DNA of 64,000 bases from Flavobacterium gelatinilyticum (GTDB taxonomy: Bacteria; Bacteroidota; Bacteroidia; Flavobacteriales; Flavobacteriaceae), in contig NZ_CP114287.1 in NCBI RefSeq assembly GCF_027111295.1, positions 434,001-498,000 of the forward strand. The letters are read 5' to 3'. The translations under genes were made by a program, and so were the position numbers. Position 1 is the stretch's first letter; each line of letters opens with the position of its first letter. Below are positions 15,060 through 33,835 of this stretch, piece after piece. Under the pieces are notes generated by a model, which saw only the letters and a list, made by a program, of their open reading frames with translations, made no database searches and was not told the DNA's origin.

Positions 15060-16733
15060 TTAATTATCGGTTACACATCCTGTTGATGCGCTTGAAACCG
15101 ATCTGGCGTATTTAAGTAAAACTCCTCTGTCGACTTTTAAAGGCGGCTTAACCCATGCTGCTTTTCTTGCTGCAAATTCCTCGTCAGATATTTTCAGGTC
15201 GATAGTATTTTTTACAGCATCGATAGCGATTAAATCTCCATCTTTTACAAGTGCAATACCACCTCCGTCATAAGCCTCTGGTGTTACGTGTCCTACCACG
15301 AATCCGTGCGAACCTCCGGAGAATCGGCCGTCTGTGATTAGTGCACAGCTGCTTCCTAATCCGGCTCCAATGATGGCAGATGTAGGTTTTAGCATTTCCG
15401 GCATTCCCGGACCACCTTTTGGCCCGCATCCTCTAATGACGACTACATTACCTGGTTTAATCTTTCCGGCCTGAAGTCCCGGAATTACTTCAAATTCACC
15501 TTCAAATACTACAGCCGGTCCTTCGAAATATTCTCCTTCTTTTCCGCTGATTTTTGCTACAGCACCTTCAGAAGCAAGATTTCCGTATAAAACCTGAATA
15601 TTTCCTGTTGGTTTTAACGCTTTTTGAATTTCATGAATTACTTCTTGTCCGTCTTGTAAATCCGGAGTTGAAGCTAAGTTTTCAGCAACTGTTTTCCCTG
15701 TTACCGTTAAACAATCTCCGTGAATAAGTCCTACTTTTAGTAAATATTTCATTACCCCCGGAATACCTCCAACTTCGTGAATATCTTCCATCATATATTT
15801 ACCGCTTGGTTTCATATCGGCAAGAACAGGCGTTCTGTCGTTAATAGCCTGAAAATCATCAAGAGTAATGGTAATTCCAACAGAATGTGCCATTGCAATT
15901 AAGTGCATAACAGCGTTTGTAGAACCTCCTAAAACAGCTACAATTGTAATAGCGTTTTCGAAAGCCTTACGAGTCATAATGTCTCTTGGCTTAATATCTT
16001 TTTCTAATAAAATTTTGATCGCTGCTCCGGCAGCAAGACATTCGTCTCTTTTTTCCTGGCTTAAAGCCGGATTAGAAGAACTGTATGGCATACTCATACC
16101 TAATGCTTCGATTGCAGAAGACATCGTATTTGCGGTATACATACCACCGCAGGCACCAGCACCCGGGCAGGCATTTTGAATAACACCTTTAAAATCTTCC
16201 GGAGTAATTTCGCCTTTTACTTTTTTTCCTAAAGCTTCAAAAGCAGAAACAATGTTTAAAGATTCTCCTTTCCATTTTCCTGAGTGTATTGAACCTCCGT
16301 AAACCATCATTGACGGACGGTTTAATCTTCCCATTGCGATTAACGCTCCGGGCATATTTTTATCGCAGCCGGGAATAGCAATAATACTGTCGTACCACTG
16401 TGCTCCGGCAACAGTTTCGATAGAATCTGCAATTACATCTCTGGAAACCAAAGAATAACGCATTCCTTCGGTTCCATTTGAAATTCCGTCACTAACGCCA
16501 ATAGTATTAAAAATAAGTCCGACCAGATCAGCATCCCAAACACCTTTTTTAACATCCTGAGCTAAATCATTTAAGTGCATGTTGCAGGTATTTCCGTCGT
16601 AACCCATGCTGACAATACCTACTTGTGCTTTTTTCAAATCTTCTTCAGTTAAACCAATTCCGTATAACATGGCTTGCGCCGCAGGTTGTGTCTGATCTTG
16701 GGTGATGGTCTTGCTGTACTTATTTAATTCCAT
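15060..16733 (-). CDS. ilvD: Dihydroxy-acid dehydratase
   Basis: Fe-S enzyme forming the 2-keto acids of valine and isoleucine. 557 residues, the normal length. Cluster Cys residues are seen in [17 protein letters not shown] and the [16 protein letters not shown] stretch. The C-terminal part has [19 protein letters not shown]. First gene of the ilv run, directly behind a leader-peptide attenuator (leader at 16820-16894, terminator at 16766-16797), so it is likely induced when charged tRNA-Ile or tRNA-Val is scarce. Confidence 0.97.
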
Positions 16734-16765: not shown

Positions 16766-16797
16766 AAAAAAAAACCTTCCAGTATTTGGAAGGTTTG
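16766..16797 (-). terminator. Attenuator terminator before ilvD
   Basis: Minus strand: AAACCTTCCA, loop AATAC, TGGAAGGTTT, then nine T in total. It lies 23 bases after the leader stop and 32 bases before the ilvD ATG, too close to be the leuB terminator. GGAAGG of plus-strand 16788-16793 can instead be paired by the end of the leader (16825-16831, minus GGAATGG, one bulged base), giving an antiterminator. Confidence 0.9.
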
Positions 16798-16819
16798 TAA
16801 TATAGTTTTTCAATTATAT

Positions 16820-16894
16820 TTATACCATTCCCGCTGCAGATGTGCTGAACACATTGACAACAACGACAGAAGTGATAATAATTGAGATTTGCAT
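16820..16894 (-). CDS. ilv leader peptide (Ile/Val-rich)
   Basis: A 24-codon ORF, ATG to TAA, whose product begins MQISIIITSVVVVNV and ends AAGMV. It has four Ile (positions 3, 5, 6, 7) and six Val (10-13, 15, 24) codons, far above chance and matching the products of the genes that follow. The terminator starts just after it. This is the layout of ribosome-mediated transcription attenuation: stalling at the Ile/Val codons leaves the leader end free to pair with the terminator's first arm. A promoter -7 box lies 22 bases upstream. There is no Shine-Dalgarno, as is usual in Bacteroidetes. Confidence 0.88.
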   Translation of the reverse strand: MQISIIITSVVVVNVFSTSAAGMV

Positions 16895-16915
16895 TTCTTT
16901 ATTTTTTTAGTGTTA

Positions 16916-16923
16916 CAAAAGTA
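16916..16923 (-). promoter_or_regulatory. -7 promoter box for the ilv leader transcript
   Basis: TACTTTTG, an exact TAnnTTTG match. The start of transcription would fall near 16909, giving a 5' UTR of about 15 bases before the leader ATG. The -33 position has a T-run instead of TTG. Its place after leuB means ilvDBNC can be transcribed apart from leuAB. Confidence 0.6.
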
Positions 16924-24385: not shown

Positions 24386-24982
24386 CTATTTCTGGCGTCC
24401 CTTCAGAACTTCAACAACATCATTTAACTGATATCCTTTGGCCTGCAGCAGAATTAAATAATGAAATAATAAATCAGCGCTTTCGCTAAGGAATAAATCA
24501 TCATTATTATCTTTTGCTTCAATAACCACTTCTACCGCTTCCTCACCTACTTTTTGGGCAATTTTATTGATTCCTTTTCCGAATAAAGAAGCTACATAAC
24601 TCTTCTCAGAATCAGCATTTTCTCTTCTGGTTTTAATAGTATTTTCTAACTGAGAAATGAAACCGTAATTCGTGTCGTTTGGTTCTTGCCAGCAAGTATC
24701 TGCGCCTGTGTGACACGTTGGTCCAACTGGTTTTGCCTGAATCAAAAGCGTATCGCCGTCGCAGTCATTTTTTATACTTACTAATTCTAAAAAGTTGCCA
24801 CTCTCCTCGCCTTTTGTCCAAAGTCTTTGTTTGGATCGGCTGAAAAAAGTTACTTTTTGAGTTTCTATTGTTTTTTGAAGCGATTCTTCGTTCATATAAC
24901 CCAGCATCAAAACATTTTTTGTCTCTGAATCCTGGATTATAGCCGGAATTAATCCGTGTGCGCTTTTAATATCGATTTCCAT
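24386..24982 (-). CDS. hisIE: Bifunctional PR-AMP cyclohydrolase / PR-ATP pyrophosphatase
   Basis: Steps 2 and 3 of histidine synthesis in one 198-residue protein. The N-terminal HisI part has the zinc/Mg motifs NDCDGDTLLIQ and GPTCHTGADTCW. The C-terminal HisE part (from about residue 110) has the MazG-like helices with KVGEEAVEVVIEAKD and LFLSESADLLFHYL. Last gene of the his operon, 101 bases after hisF. Both halves appear intact. Confidence 0.97.
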   Translation of the reverse strand: MEIDIKSAHGLIPAIIQDSETKNVLMLGYMNEESLQKTIETQKVTFFSRSKQRLWTKGEESGNFLELVSIKNDCDGDTLLIQAKPVGPTCHTGADTCWQEPNDTNYGFISQLENTIKTRRENADSEKSYVASLFGKGINKIAQKVGEEAVEVVIEAKDNNDDLFLSESADLLFHYLILLQAKGYQLNDVVEVLKGRQK

Positions 24983-24985
24983 ATT

Positions 24986-25080
24986 AGTCTAAAGTTGTAA
25001 AGTCGAAAGTCTTAAAGTCTAAATTCGAACTTAAATATTATTTTTTTATTGTTTTAAATCTTTCTTCCTGCTTCTTTCAT
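24986..25080. repeat. AAAGTCTAA word spacer, hisF-hisIE gap
   Basis: AGTCTAAAGTTGTAAAGTCG then AAAGTCTTAAAGTCTAAAT in tandem, with a partial mirrored arm near hisF. A weaker member of the word-repeat spacers. Confidence 0.5.
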
Positions 25081-25083
25081 CTA

Positions 25084-25839
25084 TTAAAGTCTAACTTCAA
25101 TATCGTTATCTCTAAGTTCCTGTTTCAACGCTTTGATCTCGATTTCTTTAAAGTGAAAAACACTTGCTGCCAAAGCGGCGTCAGCTTTTCCTTCTTTAAA
25201 CGAATCTACGAAATGCTGAATGTTTCCTGCACCTCCCGAAGCAATAATCGGAATATTTACCATTTGGGATAGTTTAGCCAAAGCTTCGTTTGCAAAACCA
25301 TTTTTAGTTCCGTCATTATCCATAGAAGTGAATAAAATTTCTCCTGCACCACGTTCTGCTACTTCAACAGCCCAATCGAATAAATTTAACTCCGTTGGCA
25401 CTTTTCCGCCCACTAAATGCACAATCCATTGTCCGTCAATTTGTTTAGCGTCGATTGCCACCACAACGCACTGGCTGCCGAATTTCCGGGCCAAATCATT
25501 AATCAATTGCGGATTTTTAACAGCCGATGAATTGATCGAAACTTTATCTGCTCCGTTATTCAGCAGAATATCAACATCTTCTACAGATGAAATGCCGCCG
25601 CCAACTGTAAACGGAATATTGATTTTTTCTGCCACGCTTCGTACCATATTTACAAGCGTTTTGCGTCTTTCTTCGGTTGCTGAAATATCCAGGAAAACCA
25701 ATTCGTCCGCACCTTCAGCTGAATAAATTGCAGCCAGTTCCACAGGATCTCCGGCATCGCGTAAATCAACAAAATTAACGCCTTTTACCGTTCTTCCGTT
25801 TTTTATATCTAAGCAGGGTATAATTCTTTTTGCTAACAT
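25084..25839 (-). CDS. hisF: Imidazole glycerol phosphate synthase, cyclase subunit
   Basis: Forms IGP and AICAR using ammonia from HisH. 251 residues, a (beta/alpha)8 barrel opening [20 protein letters not shown] with the catalytic Asp at position 11. The second catalytic Asp lies in [10 protein letters not shown], and the phosphate sites are GGGISS and ASGGAGN. It acts as a complex with HisH, encoded two genes upstream with hisA between them. Confidence 0.97.
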
Positions 25840-25852
25840 TTTTTTTTTGTTA

Positions 25853-25924
25853 ATTGTGACATGTAAAACGTGAAATGATATTTGTTAAAAATTAGACTTT
25901 CAATAGACATTTTACATTTCACTT
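25853..25924. repeat. GTAAAANGTGAAATG inverted word repeat, hisA-hisF gap
   Basis: ACATGTAAAACGTGAAATGA on one side and CATTTTACATTTCACTTTTT on the other, around about 30 bases of AT-rich loop. Confidence 0.75.
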
Positions 25925-25925
25925 T

Positions 25926-26654
25926 TTACATTCTACCAATAATATAATTTTCTAGTTGTTTCAGCGTGATTCTTCCTTCGTAAATCGCTTTTCCAATGAT
26001 GGTTCCTTCGCAACCTAGTTCTGCTAATTTTGGTAATTCGTCGAAAGTTGAAATTCCACCAGAAGCGATTAGTTTTATGCCTTTTGCTTCTGCTAAAATT
26101 TTACCATATAAATCAAAACTTGGTCCCTGAAGCATTCCGTCTTTGGCAATATCGGTACAAATAACGTATTGAATTCCCTTATTCTGATAATCCTGAATGA
26201 ATGGCACCAAATCTTCATTTGATTCTTCTAACCAACCTGAAACGGCAATTTTTTCATCTTTTGCATCTGCTCCAAGAATAATTTTTTCAGTTCCGTATTC
26301 CGAAATCCATTTTTCGAAAATTGCTCTGTTTTTTACAGCAATACTGCCTCCAGTAATTTGATTTGCACCGCTTTCAAAGGCAATTCTCAAATCATCATCT
26401 GATTTTAATCCGCCTCCAAAATCAATTTTCAGGCTCGTTTGCGATGCGATTTGTTCTAATATTTTATAATTGACAATTTTGCTCGATTTTGCACCGTCAA
26501 GATCCACTAAATGCAGATATTCGATTCCGTGTGCTTCAAATGATTTTGCCACTTCAAGCGGATTTTCATTATAAATTATCTTCGTATCATAATCACCTTT
26601 GGATAAACGAACGCATTTTCCTTCAATGATATCTATGGCTGGTATTATTCTCAT
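25926..26654 (-). CDS. hisA: ProFAR isomerase
   Basis: Amadori isomerisation of ProFAR to PRFAR, step 4 of the pathway. 242 residues, a barrel homologous to HisF. Opening [17 protein letters not shown] with the catalytic Asp at position 8, the second half-barrel Asp in [13 protein letters not shown], and phosphate loops in DFGGGLK and IASGGIST. Gaps of 86 and 97 bases separate it from hisF and hisH. Confidence 0.97.
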
Positions 26655-26748
26655 TTTTATAATTTTAGATTTCTGATTTTAGATTGTAGATTTTTCTAAA
26701 ATTGAAATTTTGATTGATTTTTGAAATTGTTATTGAATTGGAATTTGG
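26655..26748. repeat. TTTTAGATT / AATTGAAATTTTGA word spacer, hisH-hisA gap
   Basis: ATTTTAGATTTCTGATTTTAG followed by AAAATTGAAATTTTGATTG and similar words. It mixes two word families that occur alone elsewhere (8524-8556 and 14927-15050). Confidence 0.65.
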
Positions 26749-26751
26749 GAT

Positions 26752-27333
26752 TTACATGTTTAAAAAGTTCCCTAAAATCTTCTCTCCAACATCACCGCTT
26801 TTTTCCGGGTGAAACTGCGTTCCATAAAAATTCTCTTTTTGCAAAGCCGATGCATATTCTACGTCATAATTAGTTGTTGCGATAGTTTCTGCGCAGTTTG
26901 GCGCATAAAAACTGTGAACCAGATACATAAATTCATTTTCAGAAATGTCTTTAAACAAATCGGTTTTTAAATCATAAATCTGATTCCAGCCCATTTGCGG
27001 CACTTTTACATTGTTTGAAAATTTCAAAACATCCACATCAAAAATTCCTAAACCTTCTGTATTACCTTCTTCGGTTTTATTACACATCAACTGCATTCCA
27101 AGACAAATTCCTAAAACCGGCTGTTTCAATTGTGGAATCAAACTATCTAAACCGCTTTCGCGAAGTTTTGTCATTGCTGAACTTGCCTCGCCAACGCCAG
27201 GAAAAATTACTTTATCTGCTGCTTTAATTTCGTCCGGATTATTACTTAGAACAGCCTTAAAACCCAATCTTTCAATAGCAAACATAATGCTCTGAATATT
27301 TCCCGCTCCGTAATTTATTATTACTATTTTCAT
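26752..27333 (-). CDS. hisH: Imidazole glycerol phosphate synthase, glutaminase subunit
   Basis: Class I glutamine amidotransferase feeding ammonia to HisF. 193 residues. The nucleophile Cys is in LGICLGMQL, the His and Glu of the triad in FYGTQFHPEKSG near the C-terminus, and the oxyanion-side motif in IFPGVGEA. All triad residues are present. Located between hisB and hisA with word-repeat gaps on both sides. Confidence 0.97.
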   Translation of the reverse strand: MKIVIINYGAGNIQSIMFAIERLGFKAVLSNNPDEIKAADKVIFPGVGEASSAMTKLRESGLDSLIPQLKQPVLGICLGMQLMCNKTEEGNTEGLGIFDVDVLKFSNNVKVPQMGWNQIYDLKTDLFKDISENEFMYLVHSFYAPNCAETIATTNYDVEYASALQKENFYGTQFHPEKSGDVGEKILGNFLNM

Positions 27334-27336
27334 TCT

Positions 27337-27417
27337 TTTTTCGTTTGTTTTGTTTCAAGTTTCATGTTTCAAGTTCTCTACTTAACGTGAAACCTGAAAC
27401 TTTAAACTTGAAACAAA
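27337..27417. repeat. GTTTCAAG inverted word repeat, hisB-hisH gap
   Basis: TTTGTTTCAAGTTTCATGTT on the left and AACCTGAAACTTTAAACTTG with GAAACAAATTTT on the right are reverse complements with few differences, forming a hairpin of about 30 bp per arm. Confidence 0.8.
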
Positions 27418-27419
27418 TT

Positions 27420-28556
27420 TTAAAGCATTCCTTTCGTCGAAGGCAAAATCATTTTTTCGGTATCTCTTTTTACAGCCACTTTTATCGCTTTTGCGAAAGC
27501 TTTAAAGATCGCTTCGATTTTGTGATGCTCGTTGATTCCTTCTGCTTTGATGTTTAAGTTGGCTTTTGCTCCGTCTGTGAACGATTTAAAGAAGTGATAA
27601 AACATTTCTGTTGGCATTTTGCCTACCATTTCACGTTTAAATTCTGTTTCCCATATCAGCCAGTTTCTACCTCCGAAGTCAATTGCAGCCTGTGCTAAAC
27701 AATCGTCCATTGGTAAGCAGAATCCGTAACGCTCGATCCCTAATTTATTTCCTAATGCTTTTGCAAAAACTTCCCCAAGCGCAATTGCCGTATCTTCGAT
27801 CGTATGATGTTCGTCTACTTCTAAATCGCCTTTAACCGTGATTTCCAAATCCATTTGACCATGACGCGAGATTTGGTCTAACATGTGGTCGAAAAATGCA
27901 ATTCCGGTATCGATTTTGCTTTTTCCTGTTCCATCAAGGTTCAAGTTGATGTAAATATCAGTTTCATTCGTTTTTCTTGTAATCGATGCCGAACGTGCTT
28001 CTAATTTCAAAAATTCGTAAATTCTTTTCCAGTCGGTTGTTTGTAAAGCAATTGTCTCGTTTAATTCTTCACGTTTAGACGAAATTTCATTACTGCCAAT
28101 TCCATCTGTCATATTCATAAAAATCGCTTTTGCACCAAGGTTTTTAGCCAATTCCACATCGGTTAAACGATCACCCAAAACAAAAGAATTTTCTAAATCA
28201 TATTCCGGATTGTTAAGGTATTTTGTCAACATTCCGGTTCTTGGCTTTCGGGTTGGCGCATTTTCTTCCGGGAAAGTTCTGTCTACGAAGATTTCATCAA
28301 AAACAACTCCTTCATTTTCAAATGCTTTTAGGATAAAATTTTGCGTTGGCCAAAACGTATCTTCAGGAAAACTATCTGTTCCTAATCCGTCCTGATTGGT
28401 TACCATTGCTAGTTCGTAATCTAATTCGGCAGCAATTTTAGCCAGATATTGAAACGCTTTCGGATAAAACTCCAGTTTATCTAAACTGTCTAATTGGTAA
28501 TTTTCAGGTTCTAAAACAATCGTTCCATCACGATCGATAAAAAGTACTTTTTTCAT
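27420..28556 (-). CDS. hisB: Bifunctional histidinol-phosphatase / IGP dehydratase
   Basis: Steps 6 and 8. 378 residues: an N-terminal HAD phosphatase (about 1-165, [12 protein letters not shown] with both Asp, and [12 protein letters not shown]), then the IGP dehydratase domain with its Mn-binding His-rich motifs ([30 protein letters not shown] and [17 protein letters not shown]). The fusion is usual in Bacteroidetes and Gammaproteobacteria. Separated from hisC by a 53-base gap holding a palindrome. Confidence 0.97.
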
Positions 28557-28570
28557 TTTTGTATTGTTTC

Positions 28571-28602
28571 AGACCTAAAAGGTTTTGAAAACTGTTAGGT
28601 CT
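28571..28602. repeat. AGACCTAA palindromic element, hisC-hisB gap
   Basis: AGACCTAA (28571-28578) and TTAGGTCT (28595-28602) with an inner stem GTTTT/AAAAC. No T-run follows, so transcription should continue into hisB. The form is like palindromic intergenic repeats I recall from flavobacteria. Confidence 0.7.
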
Positions 28603-28609
28603 TGTTGTG

Positions 28610-29659
28610 TTATTTCAATTGTTTTAATTCTTTAATTACAACCGCATTTTCTTCTTTTGTTCCAATGGTAAAACGAAGACAATTTTCACATAATGGCTGC
28701 GTGGTTCTGTTGCGGATAACGATTCCTTTTTCGATTAACTGATCGTATCTTTTATTGGCATCATCTACTTTTGCCAGAATGAAATTAGCTTCTGTCGGAT
28801 ATACTTTCTCAACAAAACTCACTTCAAGTAAAACTTTAAGCAATTCTTCTCTCTGCTCAATAATAGAAGCTATTTCTTGTTTTATTTTATCCGAATCTTT
28901 TAAACGTTCGATTGCACGCTGCTGCGTTAATTCGTTTACATTGTAAGGAGGTTTAATTTTGTTTAAAATTGAAATTACAGCCTCAGAAGCATAACAAATT
29001 CCTAAACGAATTCCAGCCAAACCATAGGCTTTAGAAAGCGTTTGTGTAATCACTAAATTTGGATAAGCATCTATTTCTGTCATCCAGCTTTCTTTATCTG
29101 AAAAGTCAATATACGCTTCATCAATCACTACTAAACCTTTAAAGTTTTGAAGCAGTTTCACCACACTTTCATTAGAAAATGAATTTCCTGTCGGGTTATT
29201 TGGCGAGCATAAAAAGATAATTTTTGTATTCTTGTCTACGGCTTCTAAAATCTTTTCTACTTGCGGCTGAAAATCTGTCGATAGAAGAATTTCTCTATTT
29301 TCAACTGCATTGATATTCGCTAAAACACCGTACATTCCGTATGTTGGCGGCAGCGAAATAATATTGTCTTTATTGGGTTCGCAAAAGGCTCTAAAAAGTA
29401 AATCAAGAACTTCATCACTTCCGTTTCCTAATAAAATCTGATTTTGCTTTACTAAATTATTTTTAGCGAGAATTGCTTTAACCGAATTTTGTTGTGGATC
29501 AGGATAACGATTTACCCCGTTTTGAAACGGATTTTCATTGGCATCCAAAAAAATCATTTCGGCTGTATCGAAATCTTCAAACTCATCTCTTGCAGACGAA
29601 TACGGTTTTAAAGACTTTACGTTTTCACGTGTTATTGTATTTATATCGAAGGTACTCAT
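28610..29659 (-). CDS. hisC: Histidinol-phosphate aminotransferase
   Basis: PLP-dependent step 7. 349 residues from the ATG at 29659 (MSTFDINTITR); a TTG 23 codons upstream is open but its extension comes from the word-repeat gap. Seen are the fold type I motifs: FLCSPNNPTGN, the DEAYIDF Asp, the PLP Lys in TQTLSKAYGLAGIRLG, and the C-terminal Arg in LRFTIGT. A heptamer repeat tract lies upstream toward hisD. Confidence 0.96.
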   Translation of the reverse strand: MSTFDINTITRENVKSLKPYSSARDEFEDFDTAEMIFLDANENPFQNGVNRYPDPQQNSVKAILAKNNLVKQNQILLGNGSDEVLDLLFRAFCEPNKDNIISLPPTYGMYGVLANINAVENREILLSTDFQPQVEKILEAVDKNTKIIFLCSPNNPTGNSFSNESVVKLLQNFKGLVVIDEAYIDFSDKESWMTEIDAYPNLVITQTLSKAYGLAGIRLGICYASEAVISILNKIKPPYNVNELTQQRAIERLKDSDKIKQEIASIIEQREELLKVLLEVSFVEKVYPTEANFILAKVDDANKRYDQLIEKGIVIRNRTTQPLCENCLRFTIGTKEENAVVIKELKQLK

Positions 29660-29748
29660 TGTTGTTTTTTTCTTGTTTTTTTTTAGAAAATAGATGAAAG
29701 AAGCAAGAGGAAAGACTTTCTGTCTCACTTATTTCGCTCTTCTTTTTT

Positions 29749-29790
29749 CTTTCTTCTTTCTTCTTTCTTCTTTCTTCTTTCTTCTTTCTT
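29749..29790. repeat. Heptanucleotide microsatellite, six CTTTCTT units
   Basis: Exactly six tandem copies of CTTTCTT (AAGAAAG on the coding strand), followed by related CTACTTT units to about 29825. It lies in the 168-base hisD-hisC gap, about 90 bases before hisC. It is non-coding, so any copy-number change would alter spacing or RNA structure rather than a reading frame. Confidence 0.9.
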
Positions 29791-29827
29791 CTTGCCTCTT
29801 TTCTCTACTTTCTCTACTTTCTCTTTC

Positions 29828-31111
29828 TTACTCTAAACTCTTTAATCTTAACGTCACAGCATTTTTATGCGCTTGCAATCCTTCAGCTTCTGCCATTGTT
29901 TCGATTGCTTTTCCTATAGTTTGGATTCCTTTTTCTGAGATTTTCTGGAATGTCATCGATTTCATAAAACTATCCAGATTCACACCGCTGTAATTCTTGG
30001 CATAACCGTTTGTTGGTAAGGTGTGATTGGTTCCGGATGCATAATCTCCGGCACTTTCCGGTGTATAATTTCCAATAAAAACAGAACCTGCATTTACGAT
30101 TCCGTTACAGTAGAAATCATCATATTGAGAGCAGATTATAAAGTGTTCAGGGCCGTATTCATTAATTAAATCTAAAGCTATTTGATCACTTTCAACATAA
30201 ATTAATTTTGAATTTTCGATTGCTTTTTCAGCGATTGCTTTTCTTGGAAGCAATTCTAATTGAGCCTGAACTTCTTTTTCTACTTCGGCAATTAGTTTTT
30301 TTGAAGTAGAAACCAGAATTACCTGACTGTCTGTTCCGTGTTCTGCCTGAGACAATAAATCTGAAGCTACGAAAGCAGGAACTGCTGTATCATCAGCAAC
30401 AATCAATAATTCTGAAGGGCCCGCCGGCATATCGATTGCCACTCCAAACTGTGTTGCCAGTTGTTTTGCTACTGTTACAAATTGATTTCCAGGTCCGAAG
30501 ATTTTATATACTTTAGGAATTGATTGTGTTCCAAAAGTCATTCCTGCAATTGCCTGAATACCGCCAACTTTTAAAATTTTAGTTACACCGCATAATTTTG
30601 CGGCATACAAAATTGCCGGATTAATTTTTCCTTTTTTATCCGGAGGCGAACACAATACGATTTCTTTACAACCCGCAATATCAGCCGGAACAGCCAGCAT
30701 TAAAACAGTTGAAAACAAAGGTGCTGTCCCGCCCGGAATATACAAACCAATTTTTTGAATTGGTCTTTTTTCCTGCCAGCAGTTTACTCCCTCGATGGTT
30801 TCAATTTCGACTTTTTCGGTTTTCTGTGCTTTGTGGAATTTGTATATATTGTCTTTTGCTAATTGGATTGCTTCTTTTAATTCATTTGGAATCAATTGAA
30901 CGGCTTCGTTTATTTCTTCAGCCGAAACTTCATAATTTTCCTGAGAAATTCCGTCAAAAATAGAAGTGTATTTTGCTACTGCTTCGTCTCCTTTTTTCTG
31001 AACTTCTTTGAAAATTTCTTTTACCGTAACCTCGATATCATCAATGGTCTGGGTAGGTCTTTTTAATATTTCTGACCAGGTTTCTGGTTTTGGATTGTCT
31101 ATTTTATTCAT
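29828..31111 (-). CDS. hisD: Histidinol dehydrogenase
   Basis: Last two oxidations to histidine, zinc- and NAD-dependent. 427 residues. The NAD/zinc motifs are visible: IFGPGNQFVTVAKQ, DMPAGPSELLI, the LLSQAEHGTDSQVILVS ligands and the catalytic ENYGPEHFII-type stretch (EYGPEHFII). Second gene of the operon, 155 bases after hisG. Confidence 0.97.
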   Translation of the reverse strand: MNKIDNPKPETWSEILKRPTQTIDDIEVTVKEIFKEVQKKGDEAVAKYTSIFDGISQENYEVSAEEINEAVQLIPNELKEAIQLAKDNIYKFHKAQKTEKVEIETIEGVNCWQEKRPIQKIGLYIPGGTAPLFSTVLMLAVPADIAGCKEIVLCSPPDKKGKINPAILYAAKLCGVTKILKVGGIQAIAGMTFGTQSIPKVYKIFGPGNQFVTVAKQLATQFGVAIDMPAGPSELLIVADDTAVPAFVASDLLSQAEHGTDSQVILVSTSKKLIAEVEKEVQAQLELLPRKAIAEKAIENSKLIYVESDQIALDLINEYGPEHFIICSQYDDFYCNGIVNAGSVFIGNYTPESAGDYASGTNHTLPTNGYAKNYSGVNLDSFMKSMTFQKISEKGIQTIGKAIETMAEAEGLQAHKNAVTLRLKSLE

Positions 31112-31266: not shown

Positions 31267-32124
31267 CTAAAGAACCATTTTCTCAATTGGGCAAACTAAA
31301 ATCCCTTCGGCTCCTACTTCTTTTAACTGGTCAATTACATCCCAAAAAGTGTCTTTATCGATTACGGAGTGAACACTGCTCCAGCCTTCTTGTGCTAATG
31401 GAAGTACTGTTAAACTTCTAAGAACCGGAAGGATTTTTCCAACTGCCTCTATTTTGTCGTTTGGCACATTCATTAGTATATATTTTGAGTTTCGGGCTCT
31501 TAAAACGGCCTGAATCCTGAATTTTAAAGTATCGATGTGTTTTTGAATTTCTGGTGAAACTTTTGGAGAAACTGCCAGAACGGCTTCGCTTTTCAAAATA
31601 ACTTCTACTTCTTTTAAGTTGTTTTTGAATAAGGTGCTGCCACTTGAAACAATATCTACAATCGCGTCAGCAAGTCCGATATTCGGGGCAATTTCTACCG
31701 AACCTGAAATTTGGTGAATATCAACAGTCAAACCAAATTTACTAAAATATTCGGTAACCGTATTTGGATATGAAGTGGCAATACGAAGGTTAGCTAAATC
31801 CTGTACTGAGTTGTATTCGAAAGTTTTAGGAACTGCTACCGAAACCTTACATTTAGAAAATCCCAGTTTCTGTACTACTTCAATTCCTTTTCCTTTTTCG
31901 ACTAAAAGATTATCACCAACTATGGCTAAATCCACGACTCCGTCAATTAAATACTGAGGAATATCCGAATTTCTAAGATATAAAACTTCAAGAGGAAAAT
32001 TTGAAGCTTCGGCTTTTAACTGGTCGATTCCGTTGTTGATAGAAATACCGCAGTCTTTAAGGATCTGGATGCTGTCTTCGTTTAAACGACCTGATTTTTG
32101 AATTGCAATTTTTAAAGTACTCAT
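31267..32124 (-). CDS. hisG: ATP phosphoribosyltransferase, long form
   Basis: First committed step of histidine synthesis, condensing ATP and PRPP. 285 residues is the long form (HisG_L), with a C-terminal ACT-like domain that binds histidine for feedback inhibition, so no HisZ partner is needed. Visible are IAIQKSGRLNEDS at the N-terminus and the PRPP loop IVDIVSSGSTLFKNNL. First structural gene of the operon, 54 bases behind the attenuator hairpin and 111 bases behind the His leader, so it is controlled by both transcription attenuation and the allosteric domain. Confidence 0.97.
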   Translation of the reverse strand: MSTLKIAIQKSGRLNEDSIQILKDCGISINNGIDQLKAEASNFPLEVLYLRNSDIPQYLIDGVVDLAIVGDNLLVEKGKGIEVVQKLGFSKCKVSVAVPKTFEYNSVQDLANLRIATSYPNTVTEYFSKFGLTVDIHQISGSVEIAPNIGLADAIVDIVSSGSTLFKNNLKEVEVILKSEAVLAVSPKVSPEIQKHIDTLKFRIQAVLRARNSKYILMNVPNDKIEAVGKILPVLRSLTVLPLAQEGWSSVHSVIDKDTFWDVIDQLKEVGAEGILVCPIEKMVL

Positions 32125-32171: not shown

Positions 32172-32208
32172 TATAAAAAAACCCGTTTGATGTACTCAAA
32201 CGGGTTTT
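32172..32208 (-). terminator. Attenuator terminator before hisG
   Basis: Minus strand: AAAACCCGTTTGA, loop GTACA, TCAAACGGGTTTT, then more T. A 13-bp perfect stem. Its first arm (CGTTTGA, plus 32196-32202) can instead pair with TCAAGCG at the end of the leader (plus 32245-32251), seven pairs with one G-U. Confidence 0.92.
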
Positions 32209-32235
32209 AAAATATGATGATTTACACACATACCA

Positions 32236-32295
32236 TTAACACATCGCTTGAGAGCAATAATGTAAATGATGATGATGTAATTGAATTGAAATCAT
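32236..32295 (-). CDS. his leader peptide
   Basis: A 19-residue ORF, MISIQLHHHHLHYCSQAMC, with five His codons (four in a row), between a consensus promoter and the attenuator terminator. Stalling at the His run would leave the last codons (Ser-Gln-Ala-Met-Cys) free, and exactly that segment pairs with the terminator's first arm. If the ribosome reaches the stop it covers the segment and the terminator forms. This is the E. coli his logic, but with a different peptide and no Shine-Dalgarno. Confidence 0.93.
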   Translation of the reverse strand: MISIQLHHHHLHYCSQAMC

Positions 32296-32330
32296 TGTTT
32301 GGTTTGTTTTATAATTCTTTGATTCGGTTG

Positions 32331-32362
32331 CAAATATACTAGATAAAATAATTAAAAAGCAA
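32331..32362 (-). promoter_or_regulatory. his operon promoter
   Basis: Minus strand: TTG (32362-32360), 21 bases, then TATATTTG (32338-32331), matching the Bacteroidetes -33/-7 pair. Transcription would start near 32324, about 30 bases before the leader ATG. Confidence 0.75.
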
Positions 32363-32452: not shown

Positions 32453-33835
32453 TTACTCATCAAAAACCAGTGAAACTTTGGTTCCAACGCCAATTTCGCT
32501 TTCTATTTTAAAATCGATCTGCAATAAATCAGTCATTCTTTTTACAATGAATAAACCAAGTCCATTTCCTTTAATATCAGAATGATCTAAAGCGTTAGAC
32601 CTGAAAAACGGATTTAGAATCGACGTCAAATCTTCTTTTTCAATTCCAATTCCCTTATCGGTTATGGTACAGGAAATTTTCTGATTTTCCCTTTTCAGAC
32701 TGATTAAGACTTCGCTATTGTCATTAGAATATTTAATGGCATTTGATATGATATTTCTAAGAATTGTAACTACAAGGTAATTATCTGAAAAAATGGTAAA
32801 TTCCTCTTTGGCATCAAAAATAAGATTCATTTTTTTGTCGTTTATCCTTTCTGAGTTCAGAGTCAAAACGTCTAAAATTGTCGCATTGAGATAAATGGAT
32901 TCTTTATTGATATTCTGTTTTTGATTTTCGAAACGAGCCATTAAAAGCAGCTGATCAACCAATGAATTTAAATGATCGACTTCGCTAATGCAATAGTTTA
33001 TTTTTTCTTCGTACTCCTTATTATCTCTGGGTTTACGAATCAGTACTTCAAGTGTTCCTTTAATAACGGTTAGAGGCGTCCTTAATTCGTGAGAAGCATC
33101 TGATGTAAATTGTTTTTCACGTTCAATCGCATCCTCAATTCTATTTAATAAATTATTGATTGTAGTCGAAAGGACAAACAATTCATCACGTGTTTTTGGA
33201 AGTGGAATTCTGGTTTTAAGGTTGTCCTTGGTAATGATTTTAGAGGTATTTATAATCTCATTTATCGGGCTTATACTTCTTCCGGCCAGAAAACGGGCAA
33301 TAAAAAACAGCAGTAAAAGAATTATTGGAAAGGTAATTAATAAGGTGTCAAGCAGGTTTTCTAAAACCTTTGTTGAATCTGACAATGACATGGCGATAAT
33401 CAAATATCCTATTTTTTCTGATTTTACATGAAGCGGCACCTGAATCTGCCGGATTTTATTGTTTAATAATTTGGTATCAAACAATTCAAAACCCGATTTA
33501 CTTTCATCAAATACCAGTTTTTCATTCTTTAAATTGGGTGATTTTTCGATCAGTTTTTTGTTCAAATCTAAAAACTGGACAAAAACCGGATTTACATCTA
33601 CTGAATTATGTTCTCTTTCTTCCCATTCTTCAGCATCCATTAAAATAACGGCTTTTTTTTCAATTTTTATTTCACTGAGATGATCGCGGACTTCTATTAG
33701 TAAGTTTTCATCAATATGATTGTAAACAGTAAGTCTGACAATAAAATAAATAGCCGAAAAGACTGCCAATACCAGCAGTCCTGTGGTAATAATGTAATTT
33801 AATGCGATTCTGTTTTTAAAGGAAAGCTGTATCAT
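32453..33835 (-). CDS. Sensor histidine kinase
   Basis: 460 residues in the inner membrane: TM1 (about 12-34), a periplasmic domain of about 130 residues, TM2 (about 162-182), HAMP, then HisKA with the phospho-accepting His249 (SDASHELRTPL) and HATPase_c (N box NAIKYS, GIGIEKEDL and GNGLGLFIVKR). It is an OmpR-partner type kinase. The ATG abuts the stop of the response regulator gene, so they form one unit. The signal is unknown; the divergent LTA-synthase-like gene suggests a link to the cell envelope. Confidence 0.95.
   Translation of the reverse strand: MIQLSFKNRIALNYIITTGLLVLAVFSAIYFIVRLTVYNHIDENLLIEVRDHLSEIKIEKKAVILMDAEEWEEREHNSVDVNPVFVQFLDLNKKLIEKSPNLKNEKLVFDESKSGFELFDTKLLNNKIRQIQVPLHVKSEKIGYLIIAMSLSDSTKVLENLLDTLLITFPIILLLLFFIARFLAGRSISPINEIINTSKIITKDNLKTRIPLPKTRDELFVLSTTINNLLNRIEDAIEREKQFTSDASHELRTPLTVIKGTLEVLIRKPRDNKEYEEKINYCISEVDHLNSLVDQLLLMARFENQKQNINKESIYLNATILDVLTLNSERINDKKMNLIFDAKEEFTIFSDNYLVVTILRNIISNAIKYSNDNSEVLISLKRENQKISCTITDKGIGIEKEDLTSILNPFFRSNALDHSDIKGNGLGLFIVKRMTDLLQIDFKIESEIGVGTKVSLVFDE

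Follow-up and report, generated by a model that had tools for sequence, protein, structure and literature searches.

The best-known switch of the kind described here is the his attenuator of enteric bacteria, hisL. A leader with His codons is followed by a terminator, an antiterminator arm overlaps the leader, and hisG comes next. The enteric HisL peptide has seven His codons, and leaders in flavobacteria have four or five; the flavobacterial leader also has fewer alternative hairpins than the enteric one. Vitreschak and colleagues are said to have reported in 2004 candidate attenuators of the same kind in Bacteroidetes/Chlorobi, the same phylum as the organism studied here.

In their available text, surveys place leader-peptide systems in Proteobacteria, Actinobacteria and some Firmicutes (PMC2965389, PMC9413887). 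The first of these states that, before its own Firmicutes case, such systems were known just in Proteobacteria and Actinobacteria. The second describes His-leader attenuators in the Bacillus cereus group, Peptostreptococcaceae and Erysipelotrichales, which likewise have three to five consecutive His codons, a terminator and an antiterminator before his operons. These belong to a different phylum, and the comparison with them concerns layout. The available part of a study of superphylum his genes mentions attenuation for enterics only (PMC8305728), and short ORFs reminiscent of leader peptides have been noted in Bacteroides (PMC7366714).

The nearest precedent is a transcriptome of F. psychrophilum, in which amino-acid operons showed strong signs of attenuation by leader peptides in their upstream regions (PMC9723704; ISME Commun, 2021). 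Its 5′ elements before hisG and pheA are described as conserved in other genera and as lacking Rfam matches; the available text gives no peptide, pairings or reach beyond the family. The flavobacterial mechanism is already reported there in outline, and the kind of switch is classical. What is new here is the anatomy of the his attenuator, its covariation and its reach. A literature search, mostly outside subscription papers, found no account of a his attenuator across Bacteroidota.

The DNA analysed, called the window, is a stretch of 64,000 nucleotides from Flavobacterium gelatinilyticum (contig NZ_CP114287.1, positions 434,001 to 498,000). Its minus strand carries a sensor kinase gene and, downstream, a his operon (Table 1). 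The gap between the kinase gene and hisG, read on the same strand, holds a promoter-like TTG-N21-TATATTTG, a 19-codon ORF and a 13-bp terminator. An earlier note on this DNA had proposed that these parts form a his attenuator. Re-reading the sequence confirmed all of its coordinates, as well as the five His codons of the ORF, which are all CAT.

The leader ORF, the antiterminator arm and the terminator very probably make up a ribosome-mediated transcription attenuator that senses charged His-tRNA. The his genes are likely switched on at histidine shortage, both in the window and in most relatives examined. The locus has three sequence properties of a classical attenuator: a short leader ORF with codons for the amino acid that the operon makes, an intrinsic terminator between this ORF and the first gene, and exclusive pairings of an arm that a ribosome would cover at the stop codon and leave free at the sensor codons. 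Compared with enteric hisL, the stems, the promoter and the peptide differ, and there is no Shine-Dalgarno sequence; the earlier note had taken the peptide to be an unrelated one.

Table 1. Features of the his and ilvD leader regions in the window.
Feature	Position	Strand	Basis
Sensor kinase gene, upstream of and co-directional with the his operon	32453-33835	minus	
TTG, possible -33 element	32360..32362	minus	sequence; weak motif
TATATTTG, putative -7 promoter element (TAnnTTTG)	32331..32338	minus	motif conservation
Leader ORF MISIQLHHHHLHYCSQAMC, 19 codons, A-rich start region without Shine-Dalgarno	32236..32295	minus	sequence and conservation
His run, CAT x4, putative sensor	32266..32277	minus	codon conservation
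Fifth CAT codon of leader ORF	32262-32260	minus	sequence
Predicted early hairpin, in which the His codons pair with sequence that follows the leader and the antiterminator arm is held	32222..32280	minus	minimum-energy fold
Antiterminator arm CTCAAGCG within leader ORF, codons Ser-Gln-Ala	32245..32252	minus	pairing kept
Antiterminator partner CGTTTGAG within terminator first arm	32195..32202	minus	covariation
Terminator stem, first arm	32196..32208	minus	fold and covariation
Terminator stem, second arm	32178..32190	minus	fold and covariation
T run of terminator	32181-32175	minus	sequence
hisG, first operon gene	31267..32124	minus	NCBIfam TIGR00070 and TIGR03455
hisD, hisC, hisB, hisH, hisA, hisF, hisIE, in that order	24386..31111	minus	NCBIfam equivalogs
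TACTTTTG, promoter-like box before Ile/Val leader	16923-16916	minus	sequence
Ile/Val leader MQISIIITSVVVVNVFSTSAAGMV before ilvD	16894-16820	minus	sequence
Terminator AACCTTCC..GGAAGGTT with T run, after Ile/Val leader	16795-16766	minus	sequence
ilvD, behind second attenuator candidate	15066-16679	minus	

The reach of the leader was studied in DNA upstream of hisG from 212 distinct genomes: 92 of the genus, 77 of other Flavobacteriaceae, 3 of the order, 20 of the class and 20 from beyond. A hisG match was found in 82 of 121 Flavobacterium genomes; since the other 39 have none, loss of histidine synthesis seems to be common in the genus. The family search covered 149 genomes (123 with hisG) and the phylum search 247 (213 with hisG). 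The family loci are 68 from the 121 hisG-bearing members of other genera in the family search (28 best and 40 weakest) and 9 from the phylum search, two of which are in the family search as well. The 43 loci beyond the family were hand-picked from 186 hisG-bearing non-family genomes, about one per genus, with closer HisG preferred.

A first scan looked for an ORF with an ATG start and 3 His in 5 residues, at most 300 nt before hisG. It was positive in 196 of the 212 loci (genus 92/92, family 71/77, order 3/3, class 18/20, beyond 12/20). Reverse complements gave 0/212 and shuffles 25/4240, and these two controls rule out a chance ORF. A second scan admitted ATG or GTG and required 3 His in 4 residues in the genus and family. 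The conserved His run that was to be looked for before hisG in relatives is present in 92/92 Flavobacterium and 73/77 other Flavobacteriaceae loci, next to 3/3 in the order, 19/20 in the class and 12/20 beyond the class. Three of the family misses (L096, L109, L176) have by eye an ORF in the same place with merely two His close together, and the fourth (L200) has 118 nt of upstream DNA. Among 142 distinct family leader sequences, the first three positions of the run are His codons (CAT or CAC) in 415 of 426 cases.

No His-run ORF was found within 300 nt before hisG in 8 of the 20 phylum loci and 1 of the 20 class loci. Only two loci come from a distant HisG group (about 27-31% identity), and neither has a leader. 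Because hisG may not head the operon in distant lineages, an absent leader there says little. In a separate scan of named genomes, which counts every ORF with 3 His in 5 residues, 77 of 80 loci have one, and the upstream DNA of the remaining three is 43 to 111 nt long; before its hisG, F. psychrophilum DSM 3660 carries MSLNQLHHHHFHICSQAKC.

A second small ORF, MCVNHHILKPV, lies at 32235-32196 in the window and ends in the first arm of the terminator; 23 genus loci have it as MHVNHHILKPV. It was considered as a second sensor, M(H/C/R..)VNHHILKPV, and dropped, since 45 of the 92 genus loci have no NHHI ORF and the frame continues differently in other loci.

The hairpin could also be a mere terminator between the kinase gene and the his operon, with the His-rich ORF there by chance or for an unrelated reason. 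The kinase gene is co-directional and ends at 32453, and a terminator at this place would insulate hisG. Such an arrangement leaves the His-run ORF before hisG, found family-wide and in none of the reverse complements, unaccounted for. It likewise does not fit the covariation of the ORF's arm with the terminator, or the matches of a covariance model before hisG in every hisG-bearing family genome searched, and is for these reasons very unlikely.

Support for a his attenuator comes from the stems themselves. The terminator consists of 13 perfect pairs with a loop of 5, as the earlier note had it. The pairing between the leader and the terminator also exists, and its length is 8 pairs (one G-U), one more than had been noted. 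A segment of 163 nt containing the leader folds 5.2 SD below dinucleotide shuffles. A simple terminator pattern scan listed none at the hisG leader, probably because the scan wants a T run after the stem and four T here pair with A. A script found a terminator between the leader ORF and hisG in 188 of 200 leader-bearing loci (211 loci examined, one a duplicate).

An alignment of 120 family rows keeps the 8-bp antiterminator paired in 95.7% of 955 cells; both sides have changed in 18 cells, and shuffles give 5.8. For the terminator, pairing holds in 99.1% of 1319 cells, and here the compensatory stem changes that an alignment was expected to reveal number 35 double-changed cells against 4.1. 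Neither value was matched in any of 500 shuffles, and slid pairings reach at most 48.4% for the antiterminator and 54.2% for the terminator. As the rows are related, these changes do not count as independent events. One column is common to both helices. Read as leader arm, first terminator arm and second terminator arm, it is A-T-A in 41 rows, G-T-A in 19 and G-C-G in 11. In the 12 rows whose first arm has C for T, G stands in the second arm of all 12 and in the leader arm of 11.

These counts were made on all 120 rows since a smaller alignment of 82 had been chosen from them by hand, dropping 38 that include 15 family rows, several with odd stems. In the 82 rows, the share of paired cells is 88.5% for an 11-pair antiterminator, 99.6% for the terminator and 86.1% for the early hairpin. 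Pair types in the antiterminator are no more numerous there than in shuffles (228 of 500 were as high). The early hairpin, counted in this alignment alone, has pairs with double changes within the shuffle range (214 of 500 as high). The predicted early hairpin is therefore the least sure part of the element, with weaker comparative support than the terminator and the antiterminator.

A covariance model was built from the 82 family rows, with the pairs of the terminator as its sole pairs, and run on 100 whole family genomes. It matches upstream of hisG in 81 of 81 hisG-bearing genomes, 14-121 nt away and with E-values of 1.1e-6 or better; 31 of the 81 are new, in that their upstream DNA had not been taken earlier, and the match in G168 is truncated at a contig end. 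The his leader of the window's own genome is matched at 3e-27, and the next best hit there is at 8e-5. The 19 genomes without a hisG match contain one strong match to the model (G147, 2.8e-17). It is a His leader and terminator before the start of a cut-short hisG (G147:C11:12000-15000, L361), followed by a 362-aa ORF that by eye resembles a CorA-type transporter. Either the operon was lost with the leader left behind, or this is an assembly join. The other strong matches (L362-L368) were read as gene ends or plain terminators and rejected as His leaders.

Of 165 leaders from the genus and family, 149 have a recognisable arm motif and enter the spacing counts; the other 16 have none. The antiterminator arm lies 17 nt past the final His of the first run in 116 of the 149, and ends 3 or 6 nt before the leader stop codon in 139. 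The 3′ edge of a ribosome lies about 12-13 nt past the first base of the A site. A ribosome at the His run would thus leave the arm free and one at the stop codon would cover it, so that the spacing fits the ribosome footprint.

When RNA is folded with a ribosome on the run, the antiterminator has a probability above 0.5 in 131 of 132 distinct loci. Folding with no ribosome still favours it at the same threshold in 36 of the 132, which makes the default-off state less sure outside the genus. Folding with the ribosome at the stop codon omits the arm by construction, and shows merely that the terminator folds. For the window's partial transcript the best fold is the antiterminator, but within the range of shuffles (z -1.06, 35/200). 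The complete RNA prefers the terminator, also when its 5′ portion is taken away, and the switch would therefore have to be kinetic. Kinetic switching also occurs in known attenuators.

Of the promoter proposed in the earlier note, TTG and TATATTTG separated by 21 nt, the second element has counterparts in relatives, and so has the lack of a Shine-Dalgarno sequence. The Bacteroidetes promoter consensus is given as TTTG / TANNTTTG in the available text of PMC6847099. Exact matches to TANNTTTG occur 17-39 nt before the leader start in 92/92 genus and 34/73 other family loci, and in 6/164 control windows. Of 150 distinct leaders, 2 have a Shine-Dalgarno-like 4-mer ahead of the start. At -3 the most frequent base is A (0.68), and A stays high through -15, the same pattern as the A-rich starts without Shine-Dalgarno described for F. 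johnsoniae genes (PMC6847099).

These sequences, with their conservation, covariation and spacing, allow a prediction of where transcription starts, of ORF translation and termination, and of how the operon responds to histidine. RNA polymerase would start about 5 nt past TATATTTG, and a ribosome would load on the A-rich leader start, which has no Shine-Dalgarno sequence. With ample His-tRNA, the ribosome would reach the stop codon and cover CTCAAGCG, the 13-bp terminator would form, and the transcript would end at about 150 nt. With scarce His-tRNA, it would pause on the His run, whose last codon is 17 nt before the arm. The arm, left free, would pair with the first arm of the terminator once this is made, and the polymerase would continue into hisGDCBHAF-hisIE. 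Without a ribosome, the early hairpin could hold the arm, giving the terminator by default.

Outside the Flavobacteriaceae, both stems differ in sequence and pairing is mostly kept. In several class members the stems are GGCTTACC/GGTAAGCC, and the leader arm changes along with them. Across 161 non-redundant loci, a leader's own duplex beats at least 95 of 100 leader-arm shuffles in 43/64 genus, 57/71 family, 3/3 order, 10/13 class and 6/10 phylum loci. When 23 distant leaders from the class and phylum were offered foreign arms, 17 preferred their own terminator arm over at least 95% of them; of the remainder, four were marginal at 10-13% and two (L147 and L170) had no preference. In three loci (L138, L139, L144) the antiterminator arm, as delimited in this comparison, includes the leader stop codon.

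One locus labelled as outside the class (L154, from G413) has a HisG 64% identical to that of the window. Its leader, MNLLQLHHHRHHHTCSQARW, is Flavobacteriaceae-like and shares the CCCGTCTGAG stem. A joint horizontal transfer of operon and attenuator may lie behind this.

The peptide itself might be what acts, for example if His-bound metal arrested the ribosome, and the operon would then answer to metal and not to His-tRNA. In its favour, the peptide abounds in His, and much of the family shares QLHHHH. The conservation of the codons flanking the run, however, is explained by their overlap with the RNA arms: Ser-Gln-Ala forms the antiterminator arm. Beyond the Flavobacteriaceae the His pattern is loose and hisG still follows. 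Other operons of the genome, too, are preceded by leaders rich in the amino acid concerned. A peptide acting through metal accordingly deserves very little credence.

One of these other leaders lies within the window, where a second attenuator candidate precedes ilvD (16766-16923, minus strand). Elsewhere in the genome, trpE has the leader MKTLMNNTWWWKNLRQTS with WWW (L254), pheA has MASNRFYFSNNFYFFFSRSQDCAMVI with FYFF (L216), and one of two thrA genes has MKSNSIKYHSTSITAQTEAAIAATTISTTTTTTP with TTTTTT (L270). In 13 genus genomes, searched for each gene family, leaders of this sort stand at 10/10 pheA and 11/11 trpE loci read. For thrA they occur in 5/5 of one type and 0/5 of the other. For ilvD they are clear in 4/11, and the misses include two loci of a second ilvD copy.

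That a tRNA-binding T-box, which controls his genes in Firmicutes (PMC9413887, available text), or a metabolite-binding riboswitch governs the operon, with the ORF secondary, has a negligible probability, since in the window no Rfam family scores at its gathering threshold or above, the T-box covariance model has no match there at that score or at E up to 10, and the best match at a lax threshold is His_leader. This match to RF00514, at the leader of the proposed attenuator, spans the whole model with 32.9 bits and E 0.001; the gathering cut-off of the family is 49 bits.

Taken jointly, the loci make it reasonably probable that his attenuation is ancestral in Bacteroidia and several lineages beyond, carried out by Shine-Dalgarno-independent ribosomes. 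Families would have replaced all stem sequences and kept the three-way exclusive pairing, some with the stop codon in the arm, and one flavobacterium would have a full enteric-like set of His, Trp, Phe, Ile/Val and Thr leaders.

What was a one-sentence report for one fish-associated flavobacterium becomes a defined element with arms, covariation and reach, which can be annotated and tested. An attenuator requires a ribosome close behind RNA polymerase from the first codons. Because nearly all Flavobacteriaceae examined have this one ahead of their his operon, it is genome-side evidence for coupling. Tight coupling of transcription and translation is thus supported, from the genome side, in bacteria without Shine-Dalgarno sites, in agreement with a list of phyla with runaway transcription that, in the available text, omits Bacteroidota (PMC13323073, 2026).
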